A stretch of 52,845 bases of DNA, from contig NZ_FOYM01000027.1 of assembly GCF_900115975.1 (NCBI RefSeq), positions 1 to 52,845 on the forward strand, read 5' to 3'. Source of the DNA: Desulfoscipio geothermicus DSM 3669 (lineage in GTDB: Bacteria > Bacillota > Desulfotomaculia > Desulfotomaculales > Desulfallaceae). Positions 15,931 through 45,670 of the stretch are shown one piece after another (the stretch's first letter is position 1; each line of letters begins with the position of its first letter). The translations under genes and the position numbers were made by a program. Under the pieces are notes generated by a model. It saw only the letters and a list, made by a program, of their open reading frames with translations, did not search any database and had not been told where the DNA came from.

Positions 15931-16470
15931 CTATTCATAACTTGAATTATAAGATACGTCATCAAGGTTAACTGTTGATGCATTGGCAAGTTCTTGAGTA
16001 TCTGTGTTGTAGTCAATCATGGCCCATCTTCCACCCATTAGCGCATTCAACCAACATTCGGTACTAATTTTTAGTTGAATCGGTGTGTACGTGCTTAATG
16101 TCTTTCTGCGGCGATGGTTGAGTTCAGCAGATTTTTTTTTCAACCAATTGACCTCTAGGGTCAACTGGTCGATTTGCTTAGTAAGTTCCTTCTTCTCAGC
16201 ATAATACTGCTTTCTTATCTTCTCTATTTCATTTGCGCCACTAGTGAACAGGGAATGCAGGTTCTCAATGGCTTCTGCTTTCCAGCGATGTAGCTGGGCG
16301 GGATGGACTTTATATTCGGAAGCAACTTCTGAGATCTTCTTTACCCCACTTAGCATTTCCAATACGACTTTCGCTTTTTCTTCCGGTTTAAATGTTTTCT
16401 CTTTTCCATGGCTCCATTATAGCTTAATTTTTTGGTTTCTATATCTTAACCGATGGGTCCATTATAATCA
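15931..16470 (-). mobile_element. IS3-family remnant (OrfA HTH part)
   Basis: The minus strand encodes KTFKPEEKAKVVLEMLSGVKKISEVASEYKVHPAQLHRWKAE... in outline: the HTH_Tnp_1 helix-turn-helix of IS3 OrfA, then the leucine-zipper stretch (QIDQLTLEVNWLKKKSAEL) that normally runs into the frameshift with OrfB. After that the frame continues for about 60 residues unrelated to OrfB, so OrfB is missing. No usable start is left (stop, then tgg agc cat before the HTH). A possible element end is the TATAATGGACCCATC-like stretch near 16445-16470. It is inactive. Confidence 0.75.
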
Positions 16471-16643
16471 CCCGCCTTTCTTATAGTAAGCGCATTAATA
16501 TTATACAAGCCTAAAATTAACAGAAAGCGATATTTATGTCTATACTTTTTGCCTACAAGCAGCAAGAGCATGTCTAATTTATGCAAATTATCGCTTGTTT
16601 TTACATAATGAATAATAGAATTTAGTTATTAAAAGTATTATAA

Positions 16644-16928
16644 GTGAAGGAGGAAATAGTATTTATTACAAAAGAAGGGCGCAAGGCCGCAGTTTATTTT
16701 GCCGGAGGCAAAATAAACACCAACGAATCCCTTACTGCTCTGGAAGAGCGGCTGGAAAAATATCAGTTCTATAGAAGTCATAGCGGTTTCATTGTAAATC
16801 TGAACATGATTCGCGAAATTATTCCTATTAGCAGAAATACCTTTGAGTTGGTTATGGCACACACCCGGGAAAGGCCTTTGATGACTTACGAGAAGTTCAA
16901 GGAGTTTGAAAAATTATTCAATTGGTAA
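16644..16928 (+). CDS. LytTR-type DNA-binding protein, N-terminally short
   Basis: A 94-residue LytTR domain: ITKEGRKAAVYFAGGKINTNESLTALEERL, then the hallmark FYRSHSGFIVNLNMIREI and the final strands. Such proteins bind paired direct repeats at promoters. The usual first beta-strand of about 25 residues is missing, and a stop codon stands directly before the GTG at 16644. The GTG itself sits inside the only ribosome-site-like sequence (GAAGGAGG), with no AUG/GUG/UUG at proper spacing after it. It may therefore be a decayed gene or use an unusual start. An intrinsic terminator follows at 16952. Confidence 0.65.
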   Translation: MKEEIVFITKEGRKAAVYFAGGKINTNESLTALEERLEKYQFYRSHSGFIVNLNMIREIIPISRNTFELVMAHTRERPLMTYEKFKEFEKLFNW

Positions 16929-24200: not shown

Positions 24201-24311
24201 CTATTTTTCCGCACTGTAAGCGCCGCCATAGCCAAAGAAACCAATGCCAAACACCAACAGGATCAGAATCAGGAAAAGGATGAAGCTTCCGTCAAAAAAG
24301 GTTCCAGGCAT
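24201..24311 (-). CDS. YjcZ-like sporulation micro-protein 1, 36 aa
   Basis: A 36-residue protein, MPGTFFDGSFILFLILIL then LVFGIGFFGYGGAYSAEK. It has the form of the YjcZ-family sporulation micro-proteins (PF09680 type): short polar start, one hydrophobic span, Phe/Gly/Tyr end. AGGGA lies before the ATG. It lies downstream of the second paralogue on the same strand with no obvious promoter of its own, so the two are probably co-transcribed. Function unknown; family members are linked to spore assembly. Confidence 0.8.
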   Translation of the reverse strand: MPGTFFDGSFILFLILILLVFGIGFFGYGGAYSAEK

Positions 24312-24414: not shown

Positions 24415-24546
24415 TTACTTACTACAAACACCGCCGTATCCAAAGAAACCCATACCAAACACCAACAGGATCAAAATCAGGAAGAGGATAAAACTTCCGT
24501 CAAAGTTGGTGTAGCCCGGTACAGATACTCCGCCGCCGTAACCCAT
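24415..24546 (-). CDS. YjcZ-like sporulation micro-protein 2, 43 aa
   Basis: A 43-residue paralogue with a longer N terminus (MGYGGGVSVPGYTNFDGSF), then the shared FILFLILILLVFGMGFFGYGG core and the end VCSK. A GGAGGG site precedes the ATG. A sigma-K-like promoter is present at 24579-24609, about 33 bp upstream of the start codon. It carries a unique Cys near the C terminus. Confidence 0.8.
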   Translation of the reverse strand: MGYGGGVSVPGYTNFDGSFILFLILILLVFGMGFFGYGGVCSK

Positions 24547-24578: not shown

Positions 24579-24609
24579 TATAGTATTCAGCCGGAGTAGG
24601 AGATGTTAC
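24579..24609 (-). promoter_or_regulatory. sigma-K-like promoter of YjcZ-like gene 2
   Basis: On the minus strand, GTAACA, 16 bp, then AATACTATA. It matches AC-N17-CATANNNTA of sigma-K except for A in the first -10 position. The same 31-nt layout recurs at 25321, 25738, 30921 and 31308. Confidence 0.65.
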
Positions 24610-24732
24610 CATATACGGGAATTCATTATAAGATTTTTAAATCTAAATAGCACAAGTTTGGGATTGTATATTAATCAGGGATAAAACAGCGGCGTTATGG
24701 GAGAAACACTAAGAAAAAAAATGAAAGTTCTT

Positions 24733-24762
24733 GTAACAAAATTCCTTTAAGCTAATATTATG
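24733..24762 (+). promoter_or_regulatory. sigma-K-like promoter of the Gly/Pro/Tyr-rich gene
   Basis: GTAACA (24733-24738), 15 bp, AATATTATG (24754-24762). It is one base shorter than the minus-strand copies and lies 24 bp before the start codon. Confidence 0.5.
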
Positions 24763-24785
24763 GTAACAAAAAAGGAGTGATTCTG

Positions 24786-24971
24786 ATGGGATATGGTTAT
24801 GGCGGTTACGCTCCACCTAAAGGCGGGAAAAAAAATAAAGCTGGTTATGGTCCTGGCTGCGGCCCTGGGTATGGCCCCGGTTATCCTGGCTATGGCCCCG
24901 GAAAAGGTCCCGGTAAAGGCCCCGGTTATTGGCCTTGGTTCGGGCCTTATAAGAAGAAAAAAGATAAATAG
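24786..24971 (+). CDS. Gly/Pro/Tyr-rich low-complexity micro-protein, 61 aa
   Basis: A 61-residue protein with a MGYGYGGYAPP start, then repeated GYGPG, GYPGYGPG and GKGPGKGPG units, a WPWFGPY segment and a lysine end (KKKKDK). It has no membrane span. GGAG stands eight bases before ATG 24786. Composition is like spore-coat or crust proteins that cross-link or assemble through Tyr. It is encoded between YjcZ-like genes and has a similar promoter, so I infer a spore-layer component. I know no named family for it. Confidence 0.7.
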   Translation: MGYGYGGYAPPKGGKKNKAGYGPGCGPGYGPGYPGYGPGKGPGKGPGYWPWFGPYKKKKDK

Positions 24972-25076
24972 ATTCACATTTGCTCAAGTGAGATCATATT
25001 TAATAACAGCTTTTGGGCGTGTATATCCTGCTATGCAATTAACAAGGTATTTGCACGAATAGGGTATTTACAAGAT

Positions 25077-25108
25077 AAGATACCTGGGTAAAATTGCCCA
25101 GGTATCTT
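25077..25108. terminator. hairpin after the Gly/Pro/Tyr-rich gene
   Basis: Perfect 12-bp stem AAGATACCTGGG / CCCAGGTATCTT, 8-base loop. The T-run is poor on the + strand, so it may be a weak terminator. Confidence 0.5.
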
Positions 25109-25131
25109 ACTAAATGTTATCATTAAATTAA

Positions 25132-25153
25132 AAGCGCCCCTCACGGAGCGCTT
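25132..25153 (-). terminator. terminator of YjcZ-like gene 3
   Basis: On the minus strand AAGCGCTCC / GGGGCGCTT with a 4-base loop and trailing T's. Nearly the same structure is at 31117-31138. Confidence 0.7.
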
Positions 25154-25166
25154 ACCCACTGATCAA

Positions 25167-25277
25167 TTACTTTTCATAAACTCCACCGTATCCAAAGAAC
25201 CCTGTGCCGAATACCAGCAGGATAAGAATGAGGAACAAAATGAAACTCCCATCAAAAAAGCTGCCACCGTAACCCAT
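25167..25277 (-). CDS. YjcZ-like sporulation micro-protein 3, 36 aa
   Basis: A 36-residue paralogue: MGYGGSFFDGSFILFLILIL, then LVFGTGFFGYGGVYEK. GGAGG precedes the ATG. The protein is identical to copy 5 (31152-31262), and the flanking DNA is also nearly the same, so the two arose by a segmental duplication of about 230 bp. Own sigma-K-like promoter at 25321-25351 and own terminator at 25132. Confidence 0.8.
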   Translation of the reverse strand: MGYGGSFFDGSFILFLILILLVFGTGFFGYGGVYEK

Positions 25278-25320
25278 TAATACAGGCCTCCTTTGTTTAT
25301 ATTTTGTATAATTTACTGTT

Positions 25321-25351
25321 TATCATATGCAACTTGAAAGGAAAGTGTTAC
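25321..25351 (-). promoter_or_regulatory. sigma-K-like promoter of YjcZ-like gene 3
   Basis: Minus strand GTAACA, 16 bp, CATATGATA. The -10 part is a perfect CATANNNTA, and AC stands 17 bases before it. Confidence 0.7.
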
Positions 25352-25519
25352 TAATAAAAAATGCCCGTTCGGTGTAAAAAATAAGTGTCAATCCAAGAAA
25401 AAGTAACAGATTAACACATTACTTTACCTGGGATTGCAACCGCCGGTAGTGACGAAAACGGCAGCGCTGCAGAAAAACAGGTTGGGTTTGCTTCTTTTAT
25501 TATGAGATGTCTTTGGAAC

Positions 25520-25569
25520 AAAAGCTAGAAACCCAAGTCTCGGTTTATGAGAACGGGTTTCTAGCTTTT
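25520..25569. terminator. bidirectional terminator before YjcZ-like gene 4
   Basis: A perfect 15-bp stem AAAAGCTAGAAACCC / GGGTTTCTAGCTTTT. It is related to the stem at 24138-24175 (shared TAGAAACCCA core). It ends the minus-strand gene at 25596. Confidence 0.75.
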
Positions 25570-25595
25570 GCACTTACTGGCCCGGTTTATTTTAT

Positions 25596-25706
25596 TTACT
25601 TGTCAGCGCTGTAACCGAAGCCAAAACCAAAGAATCCCATGCCGAATACAAGCAAAATCAGAACCAGAAACAAAATAAAGCTGCCGTCAAAAAAAGTACC
25701 AGGCAT
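25596..25706 (-). CDS. YjcZ-like sporulation micro-protein 4, 36 aa
   Basis: A 36-residue paralogue, MPGTFFDGSFILFLVLIL then LVFGMGFFGFGFGYSADK, closest to copy 1. AGGAGG lies upstream of the ATG. It has its own promoter candidate (25738-25768) and terminator (25520-25569). Confidence 0.8.
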   Translation of the reverse strand: MPGTFFDGSFILFLVLILLVFGMGFFGFGFGYSADK

Positions 25707-25737
25707 TTAAAATCCTCCTTTTGTTTGTTGATGATAA

Positions 25738-25768
25738 TAACATATTCAGTTGGTTGAAAATCTGTTAC
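25738..25768 (-). promoter_or_regulatory. sigma-K-like promoter of YjcZ-like gene 4
   Basis: Minus strand GTAACA, 16 bp, AATATGTTA: same spacing as the other copies, A in the first -10 position. Confidence 0.65.
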
Positions 25769-25952
25769 AACCAAAACAATTAGATTTTCTAAAAATTAAC
25801 ATTTTATCGTATTAATCTTTTCAGAGAGATTCTTATTAATTCCCTGGAGTGCAAAGAAAATGCGCAAGTTTTTAATTGCGCTGTTATGATAGAACCTCTC
25901 TCACAGAGGAGCTTTTAAATTAAATTGATCCGAGATACTGTTCACGCCATGT

Positions 25953-27002
25953 CTAACCAATATCCCGTTTGTAAACACGGTATAACTTGATCACCTTGCC
26001 ACCGAACAGGGGCTTGATAACTTTTCTTTTTACCACATCATTGCTTTCGGCAACCTGCGAGGCCTCGCCACTGGTGTAACCCAGTTTCCTGCAGCGCTCA
26101 TAGAACTCCCTTAAGACCACCCAGTGGATGCCCCTGTGTTGGAATTCCGGTACAACGCCCCCGATAGCCAGCCTGATCACCCCGTCATTTCCATCCGGAC
26201 CCGGCCGCCTGATGGGTATGGAGAGGAACATGCCGGCCGGCTCGCCGCCCATCTCGAATATAAGAAACAGATCCGGCGGAACTCTGGCAGCCAGGCTTTG
26301 CAAAAAACCACTGGCTTCTTCGATGGTCATGGGAATAAAACCCCATATTCCGGACATGGACCTATTATTAATTTCCATGATAATCCTGGCCTCGTTATTC
26401 ACTGCCCGGTAATTCACCGGGCGGACCGTCAGGCCGGGAGGTGCTGTGGCGTCCCGCAGTTTGGGTGGTAACTCGTCGGGCAGGCGCCATTTAAAACACT
26501 CCAGGTCGTGCAACTTTTCCAACCCCGACTCAGCCAACAGCTCTTTGTAATACGGCGGATTGTATGGTATCTCTTCCTGTGGCTCATACTCAAAACCCTC
26601 AATTAACAGGCCGACCTGTTGGTTGGTATTCAAAGTGGCCGGGCCGATCATGACGGTCTTACCCTGCTTCTTCAGCCACCCGGCAGCCGCGTCCAGCAGA
26701 AGCCTGGCCACTTCCGGTCGTTCGACACATTCGAAACTACCCCAAAACCCTTCCTCAGGTCGGGGGTTCAGCAGGTCATACGAGGCGGTTATTCGCCCCA
26801 CGGGCTGAACGCCTTCCAGGGCCACAAAGTTGGCGAATCTGACGTGCTGTAAGGTCGGGTTGGCCAGGGGCATAAAGCGCATCCAGTTGGCGCCACCGGC
26901 AGTGGCCGGCGGTATTTTGCCGTCCCGGTAAACCATCCGGGGCATCTGCATAAACGCCTGCATGGCGGCGGGGTTATTTGCCCTGGTGACAGTATATTGC
27001 AT
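25953..27002 (-). CDS. GNAT-fold acyltransferase-like protein (YghO type)
   Basis: A 349-residue cytosolic protein. The N-terminal part (about 1-150) has MVYRDGKIPP and WGSFECVERPEVARLLLDAAAGWLKKQG, and the C-terminal part (about 190-349) has the GNAT-like stretch GVVPEFQHRGIHWVVLREFYERCRKLGYTSGEASQV. Proteins of this build are usually annotated only as hypothetical N-acetyltransferase-like (YghO). The acceptor is unknown. TGGAGG precedes the ATG. It is a single gene, not AT-rich, without link to its neighbours. Confidence 0.7.
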   Translation of the reverse strand: MQYTVTRANNPAAMQAFMQMPRMVYRDGKIPPATAGGANWMRFMPLANPTLQHVRFANFVALEGVQPVGRITASYDLLNPRPEEGFWGSFECVERPEVARLLLDAAAGWLKKQGKTVMIGPATLNTNQQVGLLIEGFEYEPQEEIPYNPPYYKELLAESGLEKLHDLECFKWRLPDELPPKLRDATAPPGLTVRPVNYRAVNNEARIIMEINNRSMSGIWGFIPMTIEEASGFLQSLAARVPPDLFLIFEMGGEPAGMFLSIPIRRPGPDGNDGVIRLAIGGVVPEFQHRGIHWVVLREFYERCRKLGYTSGEASQVAESNDVVKRKVIKPLFGGKVIKLYRVYKRDIG

Positions 27003-27196
27003 ATTAAACCTCCATTAAATCAGTTTTTAACTTTTATGTCACAATATTCTTTTCCCTGGAAATTTGCTAACATAAATTTTCATTTTTAATCCCCACCCCC
27101 TTAACCCCTTCGGGGCATACCCGTTCCGGGCATACCCATACCCGTATTGTTCCTTTGCCCTGGCCAAAGAAATGAGGCATTGGCTGTCTAAAGTGC

Positions 27197-27230
27197 AAAG
27201 AAGCGCCTCCTTAAGCGGCGCTTCTTTTTT
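27197..27230 (+). terminator. hairpin in the 27.0-27.4 kb intergenic stretch
   Basis: AAAGAAGCGCC / GGCGCTTCTTT with a 9-base loop and T6. The rest of this 430-bp gap holds no convincing gene; on the minus strand it has a short Gly-Tyr-Gly-Tyr coding-like stretch near 27100-27145 and a CCCCTTCGGGG hairpin, which may be debris of a micro-protein like that at 24786. Confidence 0.6.
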
Positions 27231-27435
27231 CTTGTACTGTGGTGAAAGAGACGGGGGGCTTATATTCTCGTTAAAAATGTTGGGGGGATCTCTAATAGCA
27301 AGGTTTCCCTTTCCCTTTAAGTTACATAATTTAAGAAAGAAGGAAAGGATTAAAGGAGTAATCACATTGATAGGGCTTAACCTGCAAGAAAAAGCATTTT
27401 TAAAATCCAAAATTTAACTTAAAGAAGGGGATACT

Positions 27436-28068
27436 ATGATAAAACATGTAGTTTTTGATTTTGACGGAACAATTGTTGATTCAAGATACTTAGCTGTGGA
27501 ATTATTAAATCAGTTAGCTGAAAAATATAGATTTCGTAAATTAAAAGAAAAAGAATTTGAACATTTCCGTTCTTTATCTATTATGGAAAGATGTAAAGCT
27601 ATTCATGTACCTGTTTATATGATTCCGATAATTTTAACTGAACTTAGACGAAAATATCAAGAATCTACAAGTCATTTAACAGTATTTATGGGTGTTAAGG
27701 AACTGATTAGGGGACTTAAAGAAAAAGGTTTTGAACTTAGTATCATTTCTTCAAATTCAATTGATAACATTAATAAGTTTTTAAGAAAAAATAATATTGA
27801 TGTCTTCGATAGTATTTATTCTTCAAGTAACTATTTTGGCAAAGACAAGGCGCTAAATGCTTTTTTAAGAAAACATAAACTTAATGGGAAAGATGTTGTC
27901 TATATTGGAGATGAATGCAGGGATATTGTTGCTTGCAAAAAAAATAATGTAAAAATTATTTCCGTATCATGGGGCTATGATTCTATAGAGCTACTTGCCA
28001 AGGAAAACCCGGATTTTATAGTCAAAAATCCAAGAGAACTCTTTAAGTTAATCACTTTAAAAATTTAA
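27436..28068 (+). CDS. HAD-superfamily phosphatase (phosphoglycolate phosphatase-like)
   Basis: A 210-residue HAD hydrolase. Motif I is FDFDGTIVDS (catalytic Asp pair), motif II is SIISSNS, motif III Lys is in GKDKAL, and motif IV is YIGDECRDIVA. A small helical cap lies between motifs I and II. It should dephosphorylate a small metabolite in the cytosol; the substrate is unknown. The coding sequence is much more AT-rich than most of the window and uses A/T-ending codons, so it looks acquired. AAGAAGGGG precedes the ATG. Confidence 0.85.
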   Translation: MIKHVVFDFDGTIVDSRYLAVELLNQLAEKYRFRKLKEKEFEHFRSLSIMERCKAIHVPVYMIPIILTELRRKYQESTSHLTVFMGVKELIRGLKEKGFELSIISSNSIDNINKFLRKNNIDVFDSIYSSSNYFGKDKALNAFLRKHKLNGKDVVYIGDECRDIVACKKNNVKIISVSWGYDSIELLAKENPDFIVKNPRELFKLITLKI

Positions 28069-28126
28069 CAAAAACAAACATTTGCATTTGTTCTTATAAA
28101 CTTTTAAACTTTAAACATCAAAATAT

Positions 28127-28168
28127 AAAAAAGCGCGCTTATTCGACTCCCTCCACGCGCGCTTTTTG
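28127..28168 (+). terminator. terminator after HAD gene
   Basis: AAAAAGCGCGC / GCGCGCTTTTT stem with an 18-base loop. Confidence 0.75.
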
Positions 28169-28269
28169 ATACTTTATTTCATCTTCCAGGATAGAATTAA
28201 ACAGGTAGCCGGGACCTTTCCGCAACAAAGTCTTGTGGGTGATGACCAGCGCAAAACCGCAGCCTGGTG

Positions 28270-28374
28270 CTGGAATTTTTAGGCGAAGGGGGCATTCTCG
28301 GCTTACTGGGTGGTGTTCCAGGGGTTGGATTGGGTTATCTCCTGGCCCAGCTGATTGGTCAGAGCGTGCTTTAA
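28270..28374 (+). pseudogene. C-terminal fragment of an FtsX/MacB-like ABC permease
   Basis: The frame 28270-28374 reads LEFLGEGGILGLLGGVPG then VGLGYLLAQLIGQSVL-stop. This is the last-but-one membrane helix pattern of FtsX-type permeases (E-A-x-L-L-G-x-x-G-G). No start or upstream domain is present. The stretch 28375-28420 after it carries two GGGGACA words resembling worn REP arms. Nothing else is seen in the 28.07-28.48 kb gap. Confidence 0.5.
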
Positions 28375-28484
28375 GGAATGGGGACATACCTCCGAATAAG
28401 GAAAGGGGACAAATAGATGACAGTAAAGCATGAATTTTTATTATATGATACCTATAATAAGGAGTTTGCGAGGTTGGACTACGG

Positions 28485-29183
28485 ATGGAAAACCTTTCAT
28501 TATTGAATGCGGGCTTGGCCTTCATGTTTGGCCTGCTGTCGTTTTTGTCTCCCTGTGTACTCCCGTTGCTGCCGGGGTATTTTTCCTTTATTGCCGGTAG
28601 CGGTGGTGACCAGGGCACCATGCCGGAACGACGGCGGCTGGTATGGAACAGCACCGGTTTTGTACTTGGATTCGGTGTCCTGTTCGTGGGCATGGGCGCT
28701 GCGGCCAGCGGGCTGGGCCAATGGCTAAACCAAAACCGGGAAATGTTGACGCAAATTGCCGGTGTGATCATAATTATATTAGGTTTGCATGTCAGCGGGC
28801 TGCTGCCGGTAAAGATGCTGTACCGGCAGGTTAGCTGGCAGCCCGGGCGGAAACTCTCCGGGTGGCCTGGAGCATTTGTGTTGGGCCTTTCTTTCGCTGC
28901 AGCTTGGACACCTTGTGTAGGCCCCGTTCTGGCGTCTATTTTGTTGCTGGCGGGCAGTTTCGAAACTATGACCCAGGGCGTTATTCTGCTAACATTTTTC
29001 ACCATGGGGCTGGCCCTGCCGTTCATGCTGGCCGCATTTGCCGCCGGTTTTGTTTACCCGGCCCTTGCCAAAATGCGAGGTGTCATGCCTTATATTAACG
29101 CTGTCAGCGGCGGACTGTTAATTGCCATGGGAGTGTTGCTGCTGTTCGGAATCTGGGACCGGCTGGCCAGGGTGTTTTACTAA
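28485..29183 (+). CDS. ccdA: CcdA-type thiol-disulfide transmembrane transporter
   Basis: A 232-residue membrane protein with six hydrophobic segments. It carries electrons from cytosolic thioredoxin to outer thiol proteins. The redox Cys pair is in SFLSPCVLPLLPGY (TM1) and AAWTPCVGPVLASILLLA (TM4), both with the family Pro residues. It is followed 40 bp later by a TlpA/ResA-like lipid-side thioredoxin, its natural partner, for cytochrome c maturation or spore/envelope disulfide reduction. The ribosome site (AAGGAG, 22 bases before) is poorly placed, so the start is a little uncertain. Confidence 0.9.
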   Translation: MENLSLLNAGLAFMFGLLSFLSPCVLPLLPGYFSFIAGSGGDQGTMPERRRLVWNSTGFVLGFGVLFVGMGAAASGLGQWLNQNREMLTQIAGVIIIILGLHVSGLLPVKMLYRQVSWQPGRKLSGWPGAFVLGLSFAAAWTPCVGPVLASILLLAGSFETMTQGVILLTFFTMGLALPFMLAAFAAGFVYPALAKMRGVMPYINAVSGGLLIAMGVLLLFGIWDRLARVFY

Positions 29184-29223
29184 GTAGGCAGTATATTGCA
29201 CAAGTAAAGTGGGGGGAGTTAAA

Positions 29224-29784
29224 ATGAATAAAACAAAATTGAGCACTGTCATTGTGGTTATGGTTTTGGTTGCTGCAGGGTTTTTCTTTTCCCGTTCCGG
29301 CGCCGGGGATTTTGCCGGGACCGCCCTGGCCGGGGAAGTATCACTGACTCTTCCCGGTGAACAGAAAACCGTGGATCCGGACATGTCACCCCCGGACTTT
29401 TTCATCATTGGCGAAAATAAAGGGGAAACCACGCTTTCAGAATTGAAGGGCAAGCCTGTGTTTATCAACTTCTGGAACACCTGGTGCCCGCCCTGCCGGG
29501 CCGAAATGCCTGAGTTGGATAAACTTTACCGTGAATACGGTAATGACGCTGAATTTATTTTTATCAACATTACCTCCCAGGAAGAATCTCTGGCGGATGT
29601 AACCACATTCCTTTCCGACAACGGATACTCCATACCGGTCTACCTGGACCGGCGGGGAGAAGTGGCCGGGGCGTACGGGATCCGGGGTATACCCACCACG
29701 GTGGTCCTTGACGCTCAGGGAGAGGTGGTCTATGCCGCTGCCGGCCAGATTTCGTACGACAAGGCAAAGTCCCTGATAAAGTAG
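29224..29784 (+). CDS. membrane-anchored TlpA/ResA-type thioredoxin
   Basis: A 186-residue protein with an N-terminal anchor (residues 7-26) and an outward thioredoxin domain. The active site is FWNTWCPPCRAEMPEL (CPPC), with cis-Pro in GIPTTVVLD. It reduces disulfides in apocytochrome c or similar proteins outside the membrane and is recharged by CcdA, encoded just upstream. I choose ATG 29224, 6 bases after GGGGGGAG, over the GTG at 29209. Confidence 0.9.
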   Translation: MNKTKLSTVIVVMVLVAAGFFFSRSGAGDFAGTALAGEVSLTLPGEQKTVDPDMSPPDFFIIGENKGETTLSELKGKPVFINFWNTWCPPCRAEMPELDKLYREYGNDAEFIFINITSQEESLADVTTFLSDNGYSIPVYLDRRGEVAGAYGIRGIPTTVVLDAQGEVVYAAAGQISYDKAKSLIK

Positions 29785-29868
29785 CAGCCGGGTTAGACGG
29801 GAGTATTCAGGGTAAGCCCCTATACTGCTGCCACGGAAACAGCGTTAGCTATCTTAGGCAGTGGAAAC

Positions 29869-30054
29869 GTGTTTGTAGAGATTGCTTCGTTTTTTCTCGG
29901 GACGCGGGATTTGTTTTTATTGAAACTATGGATGATTGGATCGACCTGCGAGTCTGTAACGGTGGTGCTGAATGAATTGGCAAAAGAAGATTTGATACAA
30001 ATGGGACGGAAGTCGATTCGAGTGCTTAGGAAGCGTGCTAATATGCCCTGCTGA
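29869..30054 (+). pseudogene. remnant of a Crp/Fnr-type regulator (HTH end)
   Basis: A 61-codon frame contains STCESVTVVLNELAKEDLIQMGRKSIRVL. This matches the recognition helix and wing of Crp/Fnr proteins (TTRETVTRVLxELxxxGLI...RKSIxIL) but lacks the rest of the HTH and the cyclic-nucleotide-like domain, and has no ribosome site. The flanking stretch 29785-29868 shows nothing else. Confidence 0.45.
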
Positions 30055-30098
30055 TGGCAGGTTACAAGAAAAAACTGACCCGGAGATGATATAGACGT

Positions 30099-30872
30099 TT
30101 ATTGTAAACCTCCGAAGCGGCGCTCCCGCTGTTGATAATCAACCAGAGCGCTCAATAAATGTTGACGTCGAAAATCCGGCCACAGTACGTTAGTAAACCA
30201 GATTTCACTATAAGCCAACTGCCAAAGTAAAAAGTTACTGATCCTAAACTCACCGGCGGTTCGGATCAATAGGTCCGGATCGGGTAGACCGGCGGTATAC
30301 AGGTGGTCTGTTATCGTCTGGATATCAACCTGGCTGGCTTTCAAACATCCCACTTCAACAGCCTCGGCAATAGCGCGAACTGCGTTTGTTATTTCTAAAC
30401 GCCCTCCATAGTTCAGGGCCAAGTTTAAAACTAGTCCGCTATTATCACGGCTTCGCTCAACAGAATTAGCGATAACATCCTGAACTGATTGAGGCAATTC
30501 TTGCAAAGTGCCTATGGAGTTAACCCTTACTCCTTTTTTACACAATTCACCAATTTCCTTATTTAAGTATTCAATTATCAGATTCATCAGGTAATTTATT
30601 TCTTGCTGAGGTCTTTTCCAGTTTTCCGTGGAGAACCCGTAAACTGTCAGCACCTCAATTTTTAACTCATAACAGATTTCTACTATGCCTTTGAGAGATT
30701 CCGCACCTGCAAGGTGACCCACAGAGCGGGGGAGTCCTCGCTTAAGCGCCCACCTGCCGTTGCCATCCATTATAATGGCAATATGCTTGGGCAGTTTTTG
30801 CCTATCAATAATTTTCAATAAATCTTGCTCATTCAGTTGAATGGTTTGCTCAAAATTAATTTTATTTTTCAT
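30099..30872 (-). CDS. uppS: isoprenyl (undecaprenyl) diphosphate synthase
   Basis: A 257-residue cis-prenyltransferase. Motifs are IAIIMDGNGRWA (catalytic Asp), GHLAGAESL, YGFSTENWKRP, LALNYGGR, and DLLIRTAGEFRISNFLLWQLAYSEI. It joins isopentenyl diphosphate units into the polyprenyl carrier for wall polymers. It stands alone, without cdsA/dxr/frr neighbours, so it is likely a second copy. Its upstream region has the same sigma-K-like promoter layout as the YjcZ-like genes (30921-30951), which suggests use in the mother cell during spore cortex or envelope synthesis; that is inference. Confidence 0.92.
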   Translation of the reverse strand: MKNKINFEQTIQLNEQDLLKIIDRQKLPKHIAIIMDGNGRWALKRGLPRSVGHLAGAESLKGIVEICYELKIEVLTVYGFSTENWKRPQQEINYLMNLIIEYLNKEIGELCKKGVRVNSIGTLQELPQSVQDVIANSVERSRDNSGLVLNLALNYGGRLEITNAVRAIAEAVEVGCLKASQVDIQTITDHLYTAGLPDPDLLIRTAGEFRISNFLLWQLAYSEIWFTNVLWPDFRRQHLLSALVDYQQRERRFGGLQ

Positions 30873-30920
30873 AAAGATATGATCCTCACTGATATTTAAA
30901 AAAACTTTTTGATTTTAGTT

Positions 30921-30951
30921 CATAGTATTCAAATAAAGTTGAATATGTTAC
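30921..30951 (-). promoter_or_regulatory. sigma-K-like promoter of uppS
   Basis: Minus strand GTAACA, 16 bp, AATACTATG, starting about 50 bp upstream of the ATG. The layout is the same as at 24579. The following 165 bp up to 31116 are AT-rich without visible features. Confidence 0.6.
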
Positions 30952-31151
30952 CATTTACAGTGCGCAAAATCCATATACTTAAAGGCACTAGTTAGAATAA
31001 ATCGTCCTTGGGAATATTAAATGAGAAATTTTGCAACATTTACTATTAAATCAACACAATACTTCATTATCACATTTTTGGTATTCAATAATTATGCTAA
31101 ATGTCACCATAAATAAAAGCGCCCCTTATGGAGCGCTTACCCACTGATCAA

Positions 31152-31262
31152 TTACTTTTCATATACTCCGCCGTATCCAAAGAACCCTGTGCCGAATACC
31201 AGCAGGATAAGAATGAGGAACAAAATGAAACTTCCATCAAAAAAGCTGCCACCGTAACCCAT
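31152..31262 (-). CDS. YjcZ-like sporulation micro-protein 5, 36 aa
   Basis: The encoded protein is identical to copy 3 (25167-25277), although several codons differ silently, so selection has kept the protein. GGAGG precedes the ATG. Confidence 0.8.
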   Translation of the reverse strand: MGYGGSFFDGSFILFLILILLVFGTGFFGYGGVYEK

Positions 31263-31307
31263 AAATACAGGCCTCCTTTGTTTATACATTTTGTTTAATT
31301 CACGGTT

Positions 31308-31338
31308 TATCATATGCAACCCGAAAGGAAAGTGTTAC
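31308..31338 (-). promoter_or_regulatory. sigma-K-like promoter of YjcZ-like gene 5
   Basis: Minus strand GTAACA, 16 bp, CATATGATA, as in copy 3. Confidence 0.7.
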
Positions 31339-39999: not shown

Positions 40000-40227
40000 T
40001 TATTTGGTTTCTCCGTGGTCATTATCCGGGCCCGTAAACATTACCCGTGCATGTTCAAAACCGGTATTCATTGCTTCAATCCCCTCTCTGATGGTGCTCA
40101 GGGAACGGGCCGTTTGATCAATCAGGCCTCGTACAAAACCCAGTTTAATGTCGGCCTGTTTATCGGTACTGAGAATCAGTAAAATAAGTATTAAAAATAA
40201 TGTAAAAGGATTGGTATTATTTTCCAA
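40000..40227 (-). CDS. small membrane protein, 75 aa
   Basis: A 75-residue protein that starts at TTG 40227, seven bases after AAAGGAGGT, and has the N-terminal span NPFTLFLILILLILST, similar in feel to the YjcZ-like cores, then an amphipathic helical tail (LIDQTARSLSTIREGIEAMNTGFEHARVMF). A sigma-K-like promoter candidate lies upstream (40265-40291), so it may also be a sporulation gene. It ends 2 bp from the convergent ferredoxin stop codon. Not a family I can name. Confidence 0.7.
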   Translation of the reverse strand: MENNTNPFTLFLILILLILSTDKQADIKLGFVRGLIDQTARSLSTIREGIEAMNTGFEHARVMFTGPDNDHGETK

Positions 40228-40264: not shown

Positions 40265-40291
40265 TATACTATGCAATAAAAGCGTCAAGGT
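40265..40291 (-). promoter_or_regulatory. sigma-K-like promoter candidate
   Basis: Minus strand AC, 16 bp, CATAGTATA: a perfect CATANNNTA with AC at usual distance. An overlapping TTGACG...TATAGA (14-bp spacer) could instead be a poor sigma-A site. Confidence 0.5.
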
Positions 40292-40312
40292 GAAAAAATT
40301 TGCCCCGGTACT

Positions 40313-44848: not shown

Positions 44849-45670
44849 TCATTTGGCAACCGTCGCCTCATTGATGGCCAATTGCAAGGTATCGGCCCGC
44901 AGGCCCACCCGTAGCGCCTCAACGGCCAGCACTTCCCGGGGCGGGATGTTCCCCAGGTTTACGTCCGGGCCGAAACGGGCGACCAGGTCTTGCTGTTGAA
45001 TTTTCAGCGGCGCTTCCCAGATGATCGACGCCGGGTTGCCTATATAATCCATCAGCACCTGTAAGTCATCGTCCGCCATATGCCCCCCGGCGTCGTACAG
45101 TCCCACGTTCAGGCCGCATTCCCTGCCTTCCAGAATAACTTTGTAAGCCCCGGTTTGCAGATCACACACAGCCTGTTCGGCCAGTGCTTGCACCGGCACG
45201 TCCAATCCGTCATTCTTTTTTCCCACTTCCGTCAATACACGGAATCCCTTTTCAGCGGCCATCGTGATCGCGCGCTCTCTCACCTCCTCGCTCAGGGTTA
45301 TTGTTCCGTCGCTGACTTCAATGGCCGTAAAACCCAATGCTTTACATTTGCCCAGGTATTCGGGCAATTTGTTTTGCCACAGGGCCACTTCCAGAAATGT
45401 TCCCCCCGGGTAAATGTCAATACCATACGATTGCACCAGGTGAATTTTTTCTTCCAGTGTGCCTTCGGCATATAACGCCGAGGTGCCGAAACCCAGTTTG
45501 ATAAAATCAATATGCTGGTAGTTGATTTGCAACAGATCGCGCGTCTCTCCAAGCCCCATACCCTTGTCGATAACCATGGTCAAACCTTTGCTCCTGGGTT
45601 TGGCCGTCCGTGCGCCCAGCGGAAAAGTGATTACTTCCCGCCAATTGGTGGAATGCATAGTTTCGGACAA
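44849..45670 (-). CDS. comA: phosphosulfolactate synthase (ComA/YitD family)
   Basis: A 273-residue TIM-barrel protein. It adds sulfite to phosphoenolpyruvate to give (2R)-phospho-3-sulfolactate. Family marks are LTMVIDKGMGLGETRDLL, DFIKLGFGTSALY, GIDIYPGGTFLEVAL, FTAIEVSDGTI and LEGRECGLNVGLYDA. In bacilli the product gives 3-sulfolactate of the spore; in methanogens it leads to coenzyme M. For a spore former with sulfur metabolism the spore role is plausible, but unproved. TTG start 45670, seven bases after AAAGGAG. Confidence 0.9.
   Translation of the reverse strand: MSETMHSTNWREVITFPLGARTAKPRSKGLTMVIDKGMGLGETRDLLQINYQHIDFIKLGFGTSALYAEGTLEEKIHLVQSYGIDIYPGGTFLEVALWQNKLPEYLGKCKALGFTAIEVSDGTITLSEEVRERAITMAAEKGFRVLTEVGKKNDGLDVPVQALAEQAVCDLQTGAYKVILEGRECGLNVGLYDAGGHMADDDLQVLMDYIGNPASIIWEAPLKIQQQDLVARFGPDVNLGNIPPREVLAVEALRVGLRADTLQLAINEATVAK

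Follow-up and report, generated by a model that had tools for sequence, protein, structure and literature searches.

A sigma-K-like promoter layout precedes micro-genes and a second cis-prenyltransferase gene that co-occurs with a cyclase gene in Desulfoscipio geothermicus and its relatives

Promoter sites and genes in the window

We analyzed 52,845 nt of Desulfoscipio geothermicus DSM 3669 (hereafter the window; the 3.65 Mb genome it belongs to is labelled G000), in which one 31-nt promoter layout recurs in front of very small genes (micro-genes) and of uppS2, a gene for a second cis-prenyltransferase. Comparisons were made with two genome sets, one of 31 genomes (G000 included) and one of 113 genomes of the order. 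The relatives mentioned by name are Desulfotruncus alcoholivorax (G004), D. arcticus (G007) and Desulfallas sp. Bu1-1 (G001), which are Desulfallaceae and share the family group of G000 (f1), and Peptococcaceae bacterium BICA1-7 (G039). The strict motif was GTAACA-N16-MATANNNTR and its control in the genome searches was the reversed pattern. The promoter sites in the window and the open reading frames (ORFs) associated with them are as follows.

24201-24311, minus strand: second micro-gene, 36 amino acids (ORF; sub-threshold Pfam match only, Tad, E 0.047)
24415-24546, minus strand: Gly/Tyr-rich micro-protein, 43 amino acids, one hydrophobic segment (ORF; no Pfam or NCBIfam match at E <= 0.1)
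24579-24609, minus strand: promoter GTAACA-N16-AATACTATA (exact match; micro-gene starts 32 bp downstream)
24733-24762, plus strand: promoter GTAACA-N15-AATATTATG, one base shorter (pattern match)
24786-24971, plus strand: Gly/Pro/Tyr-rich protein, 61 amino acids (look-alikes behind strict sites at loci L016, L087 and L049)
25167-25277, minus strand: micro-gene, 36 amino acids, duplicate of 31152-31262 (ORF)
25321-25351, minus strand: promoter GTAACA-N16-CATATGATA (exact match)
25596-25706, minus strand: micro-gene, 36 amino acids (ORF)
25738-25768, minus strand: promoter GTAACA-N16-AATATGTTA (exact match)
30099-30872, minus strand: uppS2, second cis-prenyltransferase, 257 amino acids (PF01255 290.8 bits, TIGR00055 289 bits)
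30921-30951, minus strand: uppS2 promoter GTAACA-N16-AATACTATG (exact match)
31152-31262, minus strand: micro-gene, 36 amino acids (ORF)
31308-31338, minus strand: promoter GTAACA-N16-CATATGATA (exact match)
40000-40227, minus strand: small membrane-type protein, TTG start (look-alikes behind strict sites in G013)
40265-40294, minus strand: looser promoter AC-N16-CATAGTATA

The five exact sites were found at the coordinates and on the strand reported in the initial annotation of this DNA, compared to a mean of 0.02 in 100 dinucleotide shuffles of the window, none of which reached 5 matches. Also present were two further sites that the annotation had listed, the one-base-shorter version and a looser match in front of the micro-gene at 40 kb. 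In all five exact sites a C sits 17 nt ahead of the -10 box ([C/A]ATAnnnTR). The sequences between the boxes had been described as different except in the pair at 25321 and 31308, and we found the other nine spacer pairs to agree at only 5-8 of 16 positions. That pair falls inside a duplicated unit (243 identities over 260 aligned bp, 93%), so that the five exact sites represent four independent ones.

The description of the micro-proteins as YjcZ-like holds for their layout only, because no YjcZ model of Pfam or NCBIfam matched them at E <= 0.1, a weak test given how short the models of this family are. The Gly/Pro/Tyr-rich protein likewise matched no Pfam or NCBIfam family above cut-off. The ORF at 24201-24311 lacks its own strict site and is perhaps transcribed by read-through from the preceding micro-gene.

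The motif marks a regulon

The strict motif occurred 18 times in G000, compared to 6 matches for the control, and 231 times over the 31 genomes, compared to 49. Seventy-two of 90 distinct sites, which include the five of the window, lead an ORF bearing a ribosome binding site (RBS) 10-110 bp downstream (median 41 bp), versus 16 on the opposite strand, and ORFs of no more than 90 residues follow 46 of these 72 gene-leading sites versus 6 in the opposite-strand control. The 18 gene-less sites include some with a gene farther away or missed by the rule, such as those of dxs in G012 and G013.

As a guard against circularity, micro-genes were sought by protein pattern alone and a strict site within 120 bp was then counted. 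In stretches chosen for uppS2 or for the cyclase gene described below and independently of the motif, a strict site was present at 3/6 micro-genes and at 0/152 other ORF starts (p 3e-5). Equal frequency of the motif before unrelated genes, which the initial annotation had named as contrary to its proposal, was thus not observed. The window itself gave 4/5 micro-genes versus 1/18 other ORF starts, and two G013 stretches chosen for the motif gave 4/7 versus 0/15. Pooled, the counts were 10/17 micro-genes versus 1/185 ORF starts, with the duplicate at 25167-25277 left out and the motif-chosen loci L087 and L088 taken in. A full match was found in none of 850 shuffled upstream regions. The motif excess, together with the large share of sites that lead RBS-bearing ORFs, bears out the earlier proposal of a regulon that joins micro-proteins and a uppS paralogue and goes beyond mere duplication. 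Both the sites and the regulon are read directly from the genomes.

Micro-genes lie behind three of the 13 G000 sites outside the window (L008, L016, L017) and a CotJA-CotJB pair identified by Pfam lies behind another (L015). Four sites precede other ORFs (L001, L002, L003 at 180 bp, and L007), L014 is near murC, where the start of the gene is ambiguous, and L004, L005, L006 and L018 resemble the chance matches expected from the control. The gene 30 bp behind L002 (G000:C34:134322) encodes a helix-turn-helix protein of LuxR/GerE type, which could be a late regulator.

In relatives, genes behind strict sites include those for phosphosulfolactate synthase, superoxide dismutase, a PRC-barrel protein and MurC. 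Eight relatives, from families f1, f3 and f7, have a strict site 37-65 bp ahead of a murC-like gene (L062-L064, L075, L076, L094, L098, L105; the Mur ligase assignment was checked with Pfam for the G013 copy only), suggesting that this peptidoglycan precursor gene is perhaps transcribed in the mother cell.

Candidate sigma factors

In Bacillus subtilis, sigma-E and sigma-K promoters are reported to have the -10 element in common, and position 4 of the -35 box to discriminate between them: C is preferred by sigma-K and read by an Arg, where sigma-E has Gln (PMC517825). The same report gives 15 bp as the best sigma-K gap, with 15 +-1 bp accepted, assigns yjcZ to the sigma-K regulon, and describes phosphosulfolactate genes as expressed late. 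All five window sites have C at -35 position 4, as the sigma-K rule asks, and their C-17 nt-[C/A]ATA spacing equals the sigma-K optimum gap. An intact sigK with the diagnostic Arg (GISRSY) is encoded in G000 (contig C37); GISRSY was also found in five relatives, and the sigma-E contact motif GISQSY in four. Based on these data, the promoters are most likely read by sigma-K. The geometry and the encoded Arg-type sigma-K thus fit the sigma-K-like layout of the initial annotation, and the choice of sigma-K over sigma-E is one that we infer.

We consider it improbable that sigma-E, or both mother-cell sigma factors, read the promoters instead. The -35 boxes of uppS2 and of the cyclase gene are variants, as detailed below, and some variant sites could serve sigma-E; cotJ, moreover, is under sigma-E in B. 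subtilis, and the -10 element shared by the two factors there also favors this alternative. Against it stand the C, rather than T, at the discriminating position in 5/5 window sites, the distance from this C to the -10 box, and the presence behind strict sites of look-alikes of yjcZ, a sigma-K regulon gene in B. subtilis, and of the late phosphosulfolactate genes.

A side observation concerns sigK itself: at least 7 of the 31 genomes (G016, G018, G020, G022, G025, G026 and G027) have it in two halves, with the break around model position 108-122. In five of these the halves share a contig, at a distance of 3-39 kb; an intact copy is present as well in G025, and another full-length match, below cut-off, in G026. 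The arrangement resembles a recurrent skin-type interruption at a single site.

UppS2 is a distinct cis-prenyltransferase

The family models and the catalytic motifs DGNGRWA and R-SNF, kept over eight UppS2 proteins, place UppS2 in the cis-prenyltransferase family; a C55 product would be expected of an undecaprenyl diphosphate synthase. There are three genes of the family in G000: uppS2, a housekeeping uppS to which it is 56% identical, and a divergent copy (31%; G000:C48:21511-22164). The divergent gene has counterparts in many relatives, some of them reported with a stop in the aligned stretch. A scan of the genome contigs with UppS2 as single-protein query gave no match.

In a tree of 55 rows the uppS2 genes formed a single clade (support 100/99) that joined some UppS of family f8 (97/89), apart from the housekeeping UppS of its own family. 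A recent duplication of uppS within the genome was rejected on these grounds. Members from f5 and f10 nest among those of f1, indicating transfer. Two changes reported for uppS2 on this tree stem from row L203 alone, which has the same sequence as the G039 uppS2. The motif RT[AGS]G was found in 8/9 UppS2 (RSSG in G039) and RP in the other rows, with G028 (RTSG) and the divergent copy of G000 as exceptions. Two assignments carry a caveat: G012 was counted for uppS2 with only a fragment of a housekeeping copy, and the G039 uppS2, which scores no higher than some single-copy f8 UppS, was assigned through its being a second copy and through the tree. A condensation-type acyltransferase was tried as a general uppS2 neighbor and rejected, since it occurred in only 4/31 genomes.

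uppS2 co-occurs with a HAD phosphatase gene and a cyclase gene

Between the micro-genes and uppS2, the window holds traces of a gene for a squalene-hopene-cyclase-like protein (SHC) directly in front of a HAD phosphatase gene.

27259-27418, plus strand: remnant with the promoter and first codons of the cyclase (SHC) gene (136/165 aligned columns identical to G013)
27303-27333, plus strand: GTTTC-N17-CATAATTTA, promoter of the lost SHC gene (end 102 bp before HAD start)
27436-28068, plus strand: HAD phosphatase, 210 amino acids, partner of uppS2 and cyclase genes in relatives (PF13419 7.8e-36)

A homologous HAD gene stands head to head with uppS2 in G001, G006, G012, G004 and G007, and about 4 kb from it in G024. 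The SHC gene adjoins the HAD gene in G006, and the SHC stop of G013 is closely followed by an 80-bp fragment of the 3' end of HAD (92.5%). In G012 the SHC gene faces a dxs gene with a strict site 136 bp ahead of it, and in G013 dxs lies immediately upstream of uppS2 and is preceded by a strict site, a near copy of the window uppS2 site AATACTATG. In G039 uppS2, HAD and SHC, in this order and all with the same orientation, form an operon whose intergenic gaps measure about 20 and 60 bp. The surroundings of the G013 dxs-uppS2 pair (C1, 3.009-3.051 Mb; L087, L049, L088) contain twelve strict sites in 42 kb, many micro-genes, genes for CrtC/lipocalin, AMP-binding and GMC oxidoreductase proteins, and HAD remnants; this region is a predicted spore-gene island with internal duplications.

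Over the 31 genomes, uppS2 was identified in 8, SHC in 9 (at >= 61% identity; weak matches in G018, G020, G022 and G028 excluded), and both in 8. Over the 113 genomes, SHC was found in 11 (E <= 1e-30), uppS2 in 9 and both in 9; that is, all 9 uppS2 genomes encode SHC versus 2/104 others (Fisher p 9e-12, a value that is too small because the genomes are related). The remaining 104 genomes of the set yielded no additional UppS of the same kind. In genera g4 and g6, uppS2 and SHC are present or absent together. HAD orthologues (>= 48% identity) were found in 14/31 genomes, comprising all 8 with uppS2 and 6 without.

It is doubtful that the cyclase uses all-trans heptaprenyl diphosphate or imported squalene and that uppS2 and HAD are linked to it by shared horizontal transfer alone. 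The family-mixed uppS2 tree does make a transferred island likely, and two genomes retain the cyclase without uppS2. Non-cooperating genes should, however, drift apart, and the pairing is kept in 9/9 genomes of three families with differing gene orders.

Promoters of the C-N17-CATAnnnTR type were found within 200 bp upstream of the cyclase gene in 8/10 cases, of uppS2 in 7/9 and of HAD in 4/8, compared to 6/208 other genes. Both the module and the background were scored for CATA only; the promoters within the module are homologous, so that the counts are not independent, and one of the 6 background matches comes from a second possible start of the G001 cyclase gene. With AATA allowed, for which there is no matched background, the counts became 9/9 for uppS2 (G013 through dxs), 10/10 for the cyclase and 2/2 for dxs; for HAD they were 4/8 at N17, or 5 with G013 at N16, the G000 match being the old cyclase promoter. 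The G039 cyclase gene, third in its operon, was left out of these counts. The -35 pair varied in the module (AC, TC, GC, CC). The module thus has promoters predicted to be of mother-cell type and less uniform than those of the micro-genes.

A SqhC-like cyclase in genomes where no squalene synthase was found

The DVDDT motif is invariant over 10 aligned SHCs, DXDD was present in 8/8 read, and NCBIfam TIGR01507 scored over its cut-off in 3/4 tested. The C-terminal motif G-GLPG-FYI-Y-SYR occurs in 10/11 SHC stretches of the order (the expression did not match G007), whereas the hopene cyclase of solved structure has GFPGDFYLGYTMYR there. Outside the order, a partial check found the tail expression at 25/74 loci, 24 with GLP, and the other 49 unmatched. 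Among the best 80 of 246 loci, the nearest SHC relatives outside the order almost all belong to named Bacilli (48-56% identical). Based on this relatedness and the tail motif alone we call the protein SqhC-like.

Squalene/phytoene synthase (PF00494) was found in 0/31 genomes, 9 of the 11 SHC genomes among them (G036 and G039 lie outside this set), and a positive control matched in 7/14 genomes, including B. subtilis. We take PF00494 to cover HpnC/D as well. Hopanoid synthesis was rejected because of this absence from the 31 genomes. YtpB (PF10776) was identified in 27/113 genomes of the order and in 0/11 SHC genomes (chance of no overlap 0.04), and sporulene synthesis based on YtpB was rejected in turn.

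Neighboring genes

Two further genes of the window were compared with the regulon.

25953-27002, minus strand: GNAT-like protein, 349 amino acids (Pfam 0.0018, under cut-off)
44849-45670: phosphosulfolactate synthase (ComA) gene

The GNAT-like gene has TTAGC-N17-AATATTGTG 37 bp upstream and may belong to the regulon, as its look-alikes in G006, G009 and G013 adjoin strict sites or micro-genes. The ComA gene has no strict site upstream, unlike the G020 copy (L081).

A proposed route to a spore lipid

We propose that a late mother-cell sigma promoter layout acts together with UppS2, HAD and the SqhC-like cyclase in the formation of a polycyclic spore lipid without YtpB, a reading to which we assign a probability of about 0.6. 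The 31-nt layout, most likely via sigma-K, would turn on a set of genes during spore maturation, comprising the tiny glycine/tyrosine-rich membrane or coat proteins, cotJA-cotJB and uppS2. UppS2 would produce a cis-polyprenyl diphosphate, the HAD phosphatase would strip the phosphate before or after cyclisation, and the SqhC-like class II cyclase would close rings by protonation. This would yield a polycyclic spore lipid that corresponds to the sporulenes of Bacillus. The co-occurrence and the G039 operon are properties of the genomes themselves; we infer from them which substrate is used, in which order the steps run and what is produced. UppS2 is, in this reading, not a spare housekeeping enzyme. 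A bolder version, tentative and held by us at slightly under even odds, sees in UppS2, HAD and the SqhC-like cyclase, joined in some cases by a dedicated DXS, a third way of forming polycyclic spore terpenoids that needs neither squalene synthase nor YtpB. A cis-polyprenyl chain starts at its far end as all-trans farnesyl, so the cyclase could close rings there, and the product, a cyclised cis-polyprenol or the phosphate of one, could be a previously unseen class of lipid.

The initial annotation had suggested a cis-prenyltransferase dedicated to the spore cortex or coat. We now think that uppS2 is best explained as part of a terpenoid module with HAD and the cyclase, and, given the motif in front of murC in several relatives, we keep the cortex as a rival. 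An undecaprenyl phosphate-only role, our first idea from murC, was dropped because uppS2 co-occurs with the cyclase. The rival, which we regard as unlikely, is that UppS2 increases the mother-cell supply of undecaprenyl phosphate needed for cortex peptidoglycan or for a glycan of the coat, the cyclase being separate. Besides the murC sites, it draws on the score of UppS2 above the equivalog cut-off for undecaprenyl diphosphate (UPP) synthase and on the non-essential uppS2 of Clostridioides difficile, reported as low in growth and tentatively tied to the polymer PS-II (PMC12548448). The presence of the cyclase in 9/9 uppS2 genomes, the G039 operon and the negative search for such a second UppS in the other 104 genomes argue against it.

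Several observations weigh against the proposed terpenoid route. UppS2 scores as an ordinary UPP synthase (TIGR00055 289 versus a cut-off of 109.55), and the HAD protein, phosphoglycolate-phosphatase-like by family models, scores below cut-off with all HAD subfamily models. SHC occurs without uppS2 in G027 and G036, and HAD orthologues without the cyclase in 6/31 genomes. No uppS, HAD or YtpB gene was found within 6 kb of the 74 closest cyclase loci outside the order. In G000, SHC lies in two overlapping ORFs (C28:15010-16251 and 16233-16868; L187); this may be a real frame change, in which case the pathway of G000 may be decaying, or an assembly error. With regard to the promoters, the -35 pair is GC before uppS2 in four relatives and often TC or CC, not AC, before the cyclase gene. 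The first -10 base is A in 3/5 window sites and C in 2/5 (47 C and 25 A across the 72 gene-leading sites), where CATAnnnTA is expected for sigma-K, and no strict site was found in G023 and G028, though a full sigK is present in both.

The link of uppS2 to the cyclase is the main new point of this analysis; no title or abstract in the open-licence PMC literature was found to describe it, which does not prove that none exists. The names of the family models, UPP synthase and squalene-hopene cyclase, suggest hopanoids where squalene synthase was not found. If the proposed route is correct, the chemistry by which anaerobic spore formers produce a spore terpene differs from that of Bacillus, with a bearing on oxidant resistance and perhaps on sediment lipid biomarkers. 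The enzymes of the module are few, form one operon in one genome, and are directly testable.

Comparison with known systems

The window sites resemble the sigma-K promoters described for B. subtilis in the C at -35 position 4, the 15 +-1 bp gap and, in part, the CATAnnnTA-type -10 box (C as first base in 2/5), and the regulon resembles its sigma-K counterpart in the Arg of sigma-K and in micro-genes of YjcZ-like layout, yjcZ being among the targets reported there (PMC517825). They differ in a longer fixed -35 box (GTAACA, often then C-Y-T-T), a form that was fixed by the search pattern, and in permitting A at the first -10 base.

The second uppS of C. difficile, likened here by description, is reported to be little used in growth, as noted above; its suggested role in the surface polymer PS-II (PMC12548448) is unlike the terpenoid module proposed here. 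With the hopanoid pathway, the SHC shares the DXDD motif and the TIGR01507 score, and it differs in the lack of squalene/phytoene synthase in the 31 genomes and in the GLPG-FYI-Y-SYR tail in place of GFPGDFYLGYTMYR.

The bacterial drimenol synthase AsDMS is described as a HAD phosphatase fused to a class II cyclase domain (PMC12365925). The module is similar in pairing a class II cyclase with a HAD phosphatase on a prenyl diphosphate; in AsDMS, however, the TC-beta domain is part of a fusion protein and its substrate is farnesyl diphosphate, whereas the module consists of separate genes and includes a cis-prenyltransferase and a complete cyclase of SHC type. The sporulene pathway of Bacillus is reported to consist of HepS/HepT, YtpB and SqhC (PMC11708026), and sporulene to be made in the mother cell and to reside likely in the outer spore layers (PMC13123705). 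The proposed route would share with it an SHC-superfamily cyclase closest, among the best 80 of 246 loci, to those of Bacilli, and would differ in that a cis-prenyltransferase and a HAD phosphatase, at times along with dxs, stand in for YtpB.

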